DNA of 64,000 bases from Symmachiella macrocystis. Lineage in GTDB: Bacteria > Planctomycetota > Planctomycetia > Planctomycetales > Planctomycetaceae. The stretch covers positions 558,001 through 622,000 of the forward strand of contig NZ_SJPP01000003.1 of the NCBI RefSeq assembly GCF_007860075.1, read 5' to 3'. This document shows, piece by piece, positions 35,479 through 36,981 of the stretch (the first letter of the stretch is position 1; each line of letters opens with the position of its first letter). Below the pieces are notes generated by a model. The model was not told where the DNA came from, did no database searches, and saw only the letters and a list, made by a program, of their open reading frames with translations. Both the position numbers and the translations under genes were made by a program.

Positions 35479-36075
35479 ATGCTTCACGCCAGCCAAACTC
35501 CTACACGCTGCGAAATCTCAACCGAGCAAATACGCTTGGTGTGCGAACTGACTGCCGACCGGTGGCAACACACGATATCGGTCTCCACAGGGGAGAAATG
35601 GGTGGACGTTTTGACCTCCCTCGAAGGTTCGCCAGAGGACGAATCGCCGGCCAGTCCGGTGTTTCAGGAGCTTTTGCTGGATGAGAAACACGCGCAGCTG
35701 ACCGAAGTCCAACTGTTCGGCCGCTCCGGCAAATGCCTGTATGCCGTTGCTGTGGGTATGAATACCGAGACAAAAATTCTCGATTTCGATGTCTCGGCGC
35801 GGTTTGTGGGAGCCGAGTTGCCCGCGCGGGTCACCAGTTCCTACGCAGGAGGAGACTGGGCCGTTGCGGAGAAGTCACCTCCCATCGCGACCGAGGCACA
35901 ATCCGGCTTGCGGCTAGCAATTCTTGACGTGCCGGGAATGCCGCCTTGCGAAGCCCATTGGTTCACAACAGCAGGCCTGAAAATAGGTTATGGGGACCTT
36001 TCCGGTGTTCCGACAACAACGGGTGGAACAACGATCCGCTGGCAATACCAGGTTTCCTGGGCCGCGCTCTCTTGA
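35479..36075 (+). CDS. hypothetical protein
   Basis: 198 residues, no signal peptide or TM segment, beta-rich composition with repeated strand-like segments (HTISVST, LDFDVSARFVG, GLKIGYGDLSG, IRWQYQVSW). No family recognised. It probably belongs to the Nudix-like gene's transcript given the 32-base gap. Confidence 0.6.
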   Translation: MLHASQTPTRCEISTEQIRLVCELTADRWQHTISVSTGEKWVDVLTSLEGSPEDESPASPVFQELLLDEKHAQLTEVQLFGRSGKCLYAVAVGMNTETKILDFDVSARFVGAELPARVTSSYAGGDWAVAEKSPPIATEAQSGLRLAILDVPGMPPCEAHWFTTAGLKIGYGDLSGVPTTTGGTTIRWQYQVSWAALS

Positions 36076-36204: not shown

Positions 36205-36981
36205 ATGACTATTGAAGCGGCCGAACAACTCAAACGGGAATTCACCGACAAGTACGTTGTTGTCGAGTCGGGCGTGCCGGAATTATTGCGGTTCGCGTCA
36301 CGCACGGGAATCGTGAAAACGGTCAACATGAGTGGCCGAGCACTGGTCGAATTCGACGGTGGCGAGGACATCACCTGGTACGACATCGACCCCAGCTATC
36401 TGAAGGTTGTAGACAAGCCCGAACCCAAAAAAGCCGCTGCCCCTGCTAAAAAGGCCGCTCCGGCCGGGAAAGCCGCTGCTGCGAAACCGGCCGCCAAAAA
36501 GGGCATGAGCCCCTTGGAAATGGCTCGCGCCCAAGGCGCCGGCGGAAAAGATGCTGCCCCGGCGGGAGACAAACCGCTCTCGCCGCTGGAACGCGCACGC
36601 ATGGAAGGTGCCGCTGGCGGGGGAAGCAAGACGGCCGAGAAAAAACCTGCTGCAAAACCCGCAGCCGCTGGAGGCGACAAACCGCTCTCCCCATTGGAAC
36701 GTGCCCGCATGGAAGGGGCAGCTGGTTCGGGTGCAAAAGCCGCTCCCGCCAAAAAACCGGCCCCGACTGGCGACGGTGGGAAACCGCTCTCTCCGTTGGA
36801 ACGGGCTCGGATGGAAGGTGCCGCCGGATCGAAATCCAGCGAACCAGTCGCTGAGGAAGCCCCAGCCGCTGAAGCAGAAGAAGTCAAAGCCCCCGCCGCC
36901 AAAGCCTCTACGACGGGTGCGGACGGCAAACCGCTCTCCAAAATCGAACTCGCCCGCCAACAAGGCGCGTTTAAGGGCTAG
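36205..36981 (+). CDS. small-barrel protein with five SPLERARMEGA-type peptide repeats
   Basis: 258 residues. Residues 1-70 form a compact beta domain resembling an SH3/KOW-like barrel (KYVVVES, GIVKTVNMSGRALVEFDG, ITWYDIDPSYLKVV). Residues 71-258 are Lys/Ala/Pro/Gly-rich linker with five short motifs: MSPLEMARAQGAG (101), KPLSPLERARMEGAAG (123, 159, 193) and KPLSKIELARQQGAFK (242). Each looks like a Ser/Pro-capped amphipathic helix. No signal or TM. The layout suggests a multivalent scaffold or adaptor (inference). No family recognised. Flanked by hypothetical and thioredoxin-like genes. Confidence 0.8.
   Translation: MTIEAAEQLKREFTDKYVVVESGVPELLRFASRTGIVKTVNMSGRALVEFDGGEDITWYDIDPSYLKVVDKPEPKKAAAPAKKAAPAGKAAAAKPAAKKGMSPLEMARAQGAGGKDAAPAGDKPLSPLERARMEGAAGGGSKTAEKKPAAKPAAAGGDKPLSPLERARMEGAAGSGAKAAPAKKPAPTGDGGKPLSPLERARMEGAAGSKSSEPVAEEAPAAEAEEVKAPAAKASTTGADGKPLSKIELARQQGAFKG
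36502..36975 (+). repeat. five coding repeats with diverged codons
   Basis: Repeat units start at 36502, 36571, 36679, 36781 and 36928. The three central copies encode the same 16 residues yet differ at many third codon positions, so the peptide has been kept by selection rather than by recent duplication. Confidence 0.85.

Follow-up and report, generated by a model that had tools for sequence, protein, structure and literature searches.

A planctomycete family of SH3-like barrel proteins whose repeated tail motif has counterparts on Rieske protein arms

The 64,000-nucleotide stretch of Symmachiella macrocystis DNA analyzed here (the window) carries on its forward strand an open reading frame (36205 to 36981) that encodes, from an ATG start, a protein of 258 amino acids. 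The reading frame, homolog searches, and a structure model describe it as an SH3-like barrel followed by a disordered multivalent tail. The barrel covers residues 1 to 72 approximately (36205 to 36420, + strand), as delimited by alignment, model confidence, and fold matches, and its residues L9, V18, R29, F30, G35, N41, V48, F50, W58, and D60 are invariant in an alignment of 18 diverse homologs. The tail, rich in lysine, alanine, and proline, contains five copies of a short motif on the same strand, each identified by pattern and modeled as a helix: SPLEMARAQGA (motif 1, 36508 to 36540; helix 103 to 109), SPLERARMEGA in motifs 2 (36580 to 36612; helix 127 to 136), 3 (36688 to 36720; helix 163 to 173), and 4 (36790 to 36822; helix 197 to 200), and the C-terminal SKIELARQQGA (motif 5, 36937 to 36969; helix 246 to 252, pLDDT of about 86). 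The copies start at residues 102, 126, 162, 196, and 245, with spacings of 24, 36, 34, and 49 residues, and their consensus is S-P/K-L/I-E-x-A-R-x-Q/E-G-A. Shuffling the tail 100,000 times did not yield a single match to the pattern. The preliminary description of this locus had announced a barrel of about 70 residues and five near-identical motifs. The reading frame, the motif pattern, and the model confirm the layout, but near-identity is limited to the three central copies, because motif 5 and also motif 1 deviate.

The central KPLSPLERARMEGAAG units encode the same 16 residues, yet 7, 8, and 9 of the 16 codons differ in the pairwise comparisons, as had been claimed from the sequence of the locus. 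The accompanying claim that the peptide is under selection also stands: relative to G001, the 97%-identical sister of the window's genome (G000), the 70 codons of the motif segments have accumulated 11 synonymous changes and no amino-acid change, a sign of purifying selection. The corresponding amino-acid and synonymous changes number 6 and 28 in the 116 codons of the linkers, and 2 and 12 in the 72 codons of the barrel. In the window protein, a conserved short motif recurs along a disordered linker. A rival view takes the repeats for a neutral, easily expanded stretch of low complexity. Such a linker could account for the Ala/Pro/Lys-rich spacers and for the copy number, which varies freely between homologs (0 to 7), but it agrees poorly with the absence of amino-acid changes in the motifs and with the different codons used by identical units.

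At the level of sequence, the window protein matches no Pfam, NCBIfam, or PDB entry at threshold. This includes the KOW family (PF00467), the commonest weak Pfam match among its relatives, with a best E value of 0.19 and weak matches in 4 of 34. The AlphaFold2 model, based on a 34-row alignment, shows a confident five-strand barrel (pLDDT of about 80 to 93), one short helix per motif, and a disordered tail (pLDDT of about 50). The five strands match KOW barrels with a probability of 1.00 and a Z of about 7, values that speak for the fold class only. Foldseek placed NusG, Spt5, and ribosomal KOW barrels at the top, along with NdhS, none of them with an E value below 0.001. VIA-align ranked NdhS first (Z of 8.3 for 6khi_S and 7.9 for 6hum_S), followed by the variable chain of FTR (7.7), KOW domains, and PetP (7.0, 2n5u), but differences in Z under 1 are ties, a Z below 8 may reflect no more than a similar arrangement, and most FTR, KOW, and PetP entries differ from NdhS by about 1 or less. 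The modeled fold is thus SH3-like, of the KOW/NdhS/PetP sort, and the fold does not choose a function. The preliminary statement that no known family comes to mind therefore holds for the sequence, but the fold is a known one, shared by NdhS, FTR, PetP, and KOW domains.

Of 99 relatives searched with the window protein as the query, 78 encode a barrel homolog. When the barrel profile was run against 148 sampled genomes of the phylum, all matches fell within the window's class, so that the family seems confined to Planctomycetia. Named homologs occur in Blastopirellula marina DSM 3645 and in many Pirellulales MAGs. The barrels of the window's own family group (f1) and of a Blastopirellula-like group (f5, an affiliation deduced from near-identical barrel sequences) carry a tail with motifs, usually 3 to 7 of them, while those of groups f3, f4, f6, and f7 consist of the barrel alone or nearly so. 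The f3 proteins end in a conserved tail of their own, YDPTxNSAQxxPxRQ; this end is found in the barrel-only relatives at loci L070, L071, L072, L076, and L077, mostly directly upstream of a trpG-like gene. The profile search found no barrel in the twelve f2 genomes and in G095 (f8). Two paralogs (L058, 3463 to 4938; L060, from about 5428 on the + strand) combine the barrel with many SPLDxIR motifs and an appended C-terminal domain of the DDLKIVEGIGPKIEELF type, which looks like a helix-hairpin-helix.

The gene upstream of the barrel gene in the window (35479 to 36075, + strand) encodes a conserved 198-amino-acid protein, all-beta in its model, which weakly resembles a super-beta-sandwich and has no significant fold match. 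In about 20 other loci, from three family groups, a homolog of it immediately precedes the barrel gene. Downstream, the window has a thioredoxin-like gene, which is not conserved at this position. In parts of the family the barrel gene is flanked by prfB, trpG, moeA, or lnt (names given by sequence recognition). These have the look of housekeeping genes; respiratory genes were not seen next to the barrel gene in the family neighborhoods. The presence of prfB upstream in part of the family, the Foldseek ranking, and the weak Pfam KOW matches would fit a KOW-type binder of nucleic acid, of the ribosome, or of RNA polymerase, with a basic helical tail that also contacts nucleic acid. NdhS and FTR score slightly higher than KOW domains by alignment Z, although the scores are tied. 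Under such a function, the resemblance of the tail to the Rieske arms described below would be a convergence of Ala-rich helix linkers.

The preliminary description had proposed a search for the motif elsewhere in the proteome, and it is indeed present on a Rieske protein, in the arm at the N terminus, and in the loops of other proteins. The Rieske carrier was reached through pattern searches. Its arm contains about 2 to 5 copies of [ST]TxDILAAARAxx ahead of an RRxFL-like twin-arginine motif and a membrane anchor, and the motif is repeated in this way in nearly all the f1 genomes encoding such a Rieske protein, including G000. In the latter, the copies are MTTADILAFCRAEA, STKDILAAARAAA, STKDILAAARAQKA, and SVKEMLAAFRNEK; the arm reads MTTADILAFCR, STKDILAAAR (twice), and SVKEMLAAFR, and the genes downstream encode cytochrome b6-like, subunit-IV-like, and multiheme c proteins. 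The Rieske domain (PF00355) scores 32.8 bits, above its cut-off, whereas the best NCBIfam model, PetC, stays below its own. The sequences have a Rieske [2Fe-2S] domain, an RRSFL-type twin arginine, and a hydrophobic segment as membrane anchor. Judged by its sequence, the motif-bearing protein is a subunit of a cytochrome bc/b6f-type complex, with an arm that would be located in the cytosol.

The motifs of the two proteins resemble each other across groups. The f1 genomes G006 and G029 carry STADILAAARAQ on the Rieske arm; STADILAAARAKK is the form present in the barrel proteins of f5, and some barrels of f1 have STAEILALARQQG or SPAEIMAAIRANK at their C-terminal end. The Rieske arm of G006, used as a lone query, retrieved the barrel tail of an f5 genome (G064) with an E value of 4e-7. 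Within f1, the likeness between the barrel motif (SPLELARQQGA) and that of the Rieske arm (STADILAAARAQ) falls short of identity. At L228, L231, L257, and similar f5-like loci, the last barrel motif contains a cysteine (DIVAYCRxxDG), matching the N-terminal copy of the Rieske arm (SVEEMLAACRKQDG, TTADILAFCR); this cysteine may be functional.

The search with the window protein also matched large open reading frames that lack the barrel and encode polytopic membrane proteins, which by eye are cytochrome-b-like; they had no Pfam cytochrome-b match. In some relatives, the soluble linker or loop of these proteins contains up to 13 SPLExAR/SPLDxIK units, and the operon includes genes for a cNMP-binding ferredoxin and a multiheme cytochrome c. 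At L164 (+ strand, from about 2998), a protein of this kind has 13 SPLDxIK/IR units in its loop, mostly as near-perfect tandem repeats of SPLDAIKAAGAKKPGG. Single copies were also observed. A nitrite/sulfite reductase fused with Rieske ferredoxin and FNR-type domains (L160, 882 to 3767) has one STADILAAARAG in a linker, and a 310-amino-acid protein of G000 (L221, 3557 to 4489) starts with MAKKRTTAEIIAAARNSD, while G001 shows no match to the same pattern; the latter protein may be a tagged client or a chance match. The TTEEMLAAC matches in f5 genomes were discarded as chance, lying within a protein that has the appearance of CoaB. In G000, the strict SPLE-form pattern matches only the barrel gene, and scans for further carriers with degenerate patterns yielded about as many matches as controls; therefore, only the Rieske and barrel proteins are secure carriers in this genome. 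A literature search returned no description of the motif.

The presence of the tail follows that of the Rieske arm among the groups with a barrel: both are present in f1, f5, and f9, and both are absent in f4, f6, and f7, in which tail-less barrels coexist with Rieske proteins without the arm. Group f3 has no such Rieske protein. Within f1, the barrel is absent or tail-less in 5 of the 12 genomes without the motif-type Rieske protein and in 2 of the 48 with it (P = 0.002, kinship ignored). Most of the twelve f2 genomes, which have no barrel, have a Rieske arm with another repeat (KEKLAAARAGG). In the f2 Rieske proteins of L201 to L209 this repeat reads LTLKEKLAAARAGG or SVKDKLAAARSGG, and in the nine genomes scanned the exact pattern occurs only in the Rieske gene. 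This different repeat is a further point that a neutral linker would accommodate. A barrel with a motif-bearing tail is kept without an ortholog of this Rieske protein in G003, G015, and G034, and in G064, G073, G081, and G084 of f5; therefore, the Rieske protein is not the sole partner and the tail has another use too.

The persistence of tailed barrels in genomes lacking the motif-type Rieske protein would also be accounted for if the motif were a cargo or anchor tag for another assembly (a scaffold, condensate, coiled-coil, or shell) that recruits the barrel protein, the Rieske complex, and other enzymes, with respiration as one client. The single copies in the nitrite-reductase/FNR fusion and at the N terminus of the 310-amino-acid protein point the same way, but they could be due to chance, given that pattern controls match about as often. 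Together with the restriction of the strict pattern to the barrel gene in G000, and with a search that found no scaffold, this leaves a cargo tag as a conceivable, rather unlikely explanation.

The closest link between the two proteins is at one position of the motif. We scored, in the 44 genomes encoding both, the fraction of motifs with Ile as opposed to Ala before the Arg, excluding the membrane-proximal SVxEML copy of the Rieske arm from the count. The Ile fractions of barrel and Rieske proteins were strongly correlated (Spearman 0.976; Fisher P = 1.6e-9): Ile-type barrels occurred with Ile-type arms in 11 of 12 cases, and Ala-type barrels with Ala-type arms in 32 of 32. A tree built from the Rieske catalytic domain shows six changes of the trait, made by barrel and Rieske together, at least 3 of which are forced by supported branches. 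Barrel and Rieske were concordant in the three independent well-supported pairs (3/3), a number too small for a significant sign test, so that phylogeny may still contribute to the correlation. A second position (D or G at motif position +3) was also correlated (Spearman 0.71), but without support from the independent pairs. The loops of the cytochrome-b-like proteins agree in part: those of G008 and G044 are of the Ile type and those of G012, G014, and G051 of the Ala type, in line with the other carriers, but some copies have Met, and G032 and G045 disagree. It had been suggested beforehand that freely varying repeats would count against a functional motif. The copy number does range from 0 to 7, and the motif has drifted from one lineage to another. 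Within one genome, however, the copies are largely alike and match those of its Rieske protein.

Two trivial causes were considered and rejected. A bias in G+C content does not underlie the switch between Ala and Ile, since there is no G+C difference (P = 0.38). Gene conversion does not underlie the sharing of the motif: the codon identity between barrel and Rieske motifs (0.346) does not exceed the background of 0.364 measured with an unrelated domain, and this speaks against recent conversion. Drift in composition across a lineage, by which a neutral linker could make both proteins alike without a common partner, would not be expected to produce co-variation at a defined motif position that tracks neither G+C content nor codon sharing, and we regard it as improbable. 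Convergence of helix linkers, as assumed for a nucleic-acid-binding KOW protein, would not predict position-specific co-variation with the Rieske arm either, and the Rieske arms are not basic but rich in Ala, Pro, and Glu, which makes that function distinctly unlikely. The co-variation instead supports a common partner surface for the motifs of the two proteins.

This surface might be the barrel itself. SH3-like domains are classic peptide binders, and the barrel could bind the motifs of its own tail, of other molecules of the protein, and of the Rieske arm, forming a self-contained network without a third protein. The C-terminal motif helix is modeled with a confidence (pLDDT of about 86) well over that of the surrounding tail, and residue 44 of the barrel is Cys in 15 of 16 I-type proteins versus 12 of 42 A-type proteins (P = 1e-5), both of which fit such a receptor. 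Nevertheless, neither this position nor positions 17, 36, and 67 follow the A/I switch in the independent pairs, and there are barrels without motifs (f3, f4, f6, and f7) as well as motif arms without barrels (f2), making a receptor role of the barrel unlikely.

Overall, we consider the barrel with its motif tail a real, previously undescribed protein family with an unusual shared motif, and its mechanism can be plausibly drawn. In the reading that we favor, with a probability of roughly 0.45, it would serve the respiratory chain of Pirellulales-type planctomycetes as a soluble, multivalent docking protein, with a motif class common to the barrel tail, the Rieske arm, and some cytochrome-b-like loops. 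The SH3-like barrel would be akin to the small cytosolic accessory subunits of electron-transport complexes (NdhS, PetP, and the variable chain of FTR), and its tail would present several copies of a short amphipathic helix, related to those on the arm that the Rieske protein of a cytochrome bc/b6f-type complex would extend into the cytosol, and to those that some genomes place on the large loop of the cytochrome-b-like membrane protein. One common binding surface, either a putative receptor or the pairing of motifs with one another, would read all of them, which is the most economical account of the data; our searches found no receptor for the motif. The Rieske arm would then display the motif at the membrane, with the barrel protein as a multivalent adaptor in solution, and the binding of the motif to the common partner, through many weak contacts, could hold together or cluster the barrel protein and the membrane complexes, possibly as condensates or supercomplexes.

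A broader and more tentative proposal is that the respiratory complexes of Pirellulales are organized from the cytosolic side by a dedicated genome-wide peptide code, in which one docking helix on the Rieske arm, the cytochrome-b-like protein, and the SH3-barrel adaptor would be read by a common receptor and would have been re-coded jointly, from Ala to Ile, in separate lineages. If true, the code would be a bacterial multivalent scaffold for an electron-transport chain. Eukaryotes offer well-known cases of short linear motifs that several unrelated proteins share and that co-evolve across species; to our knowledge, such motifs have rarely been documented in bacteria, and none was described on respiratory complexes in the literature that we found. 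If this is right, the motif would give a handle on the arrangement of the planctomycete electron-transport chain and could serve as bait for the receptor and for other clients.

Among known systems, PetP, the SH3-fold accessory subunit of cyanobacterial cytochrome b6f, has a barrel like that of the window protein. PetP, NdhS, FTR, and PsaE have a common SH3-like fold, and PetP binds to the cytoplasmic face of cytochrome b6f (PMC9342900). The modeled barrel of the window protein has the same fold and size as PetP (2n5u, Z of 7.0, rmsd of 2.8, 66 residues). The complex to which PetP attaches also contains the Rieske protein, and the tail of the window protein carries a motif related to that of a Rieske arm, with which it co-varies across genomes. 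However, with an identity of about 15%, the two show no relation at the sequence level, and PetP shows no sign of such a tail. NdhS, on the ferredoxin side of cyanobacterial NDH-1, is the best structural match (6hum_S, rmsd of 1.5 over 55 residues, 24% identity), but the barrel has no profile match to the NdhS family, the lead in Z over KOW domains is below 1, and no nuo or ndh genes were seen beside the barrel gene in the neighborhoods inspected. The KOW domains of NusG, Spt5, and ribosomal proteins are the top Foldseek matches, and weak Pfam KOW hits occur in 4 of 34 members. On the other side, no Pfam match of the family reaches the threshold, its gene context hints at transcription or translation only through the adjacency of prfB in part of its members, and its tail motif is shared with a Rieske protein. 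CsoS2 and EPYC1 are multivalent intrinsically disordered scaffolds, and the window protein resembles them in the way it would work, with short, evenly conserved helical motifs spaced along a disordered linker. The multivalent scaffold envisaged in the preliminary description, in which each helix would bind one copy of a partner, is retained in its architecture, but without the shell or encapsulation context, none being seen. Unlike in CsoS2 and EPYC1, there is no shell, Rubisco, or encapsulated cargo, the motifs are unrelated to theirs, and membrane proteins of the respiratory chain bear the motif of the window protein as well.
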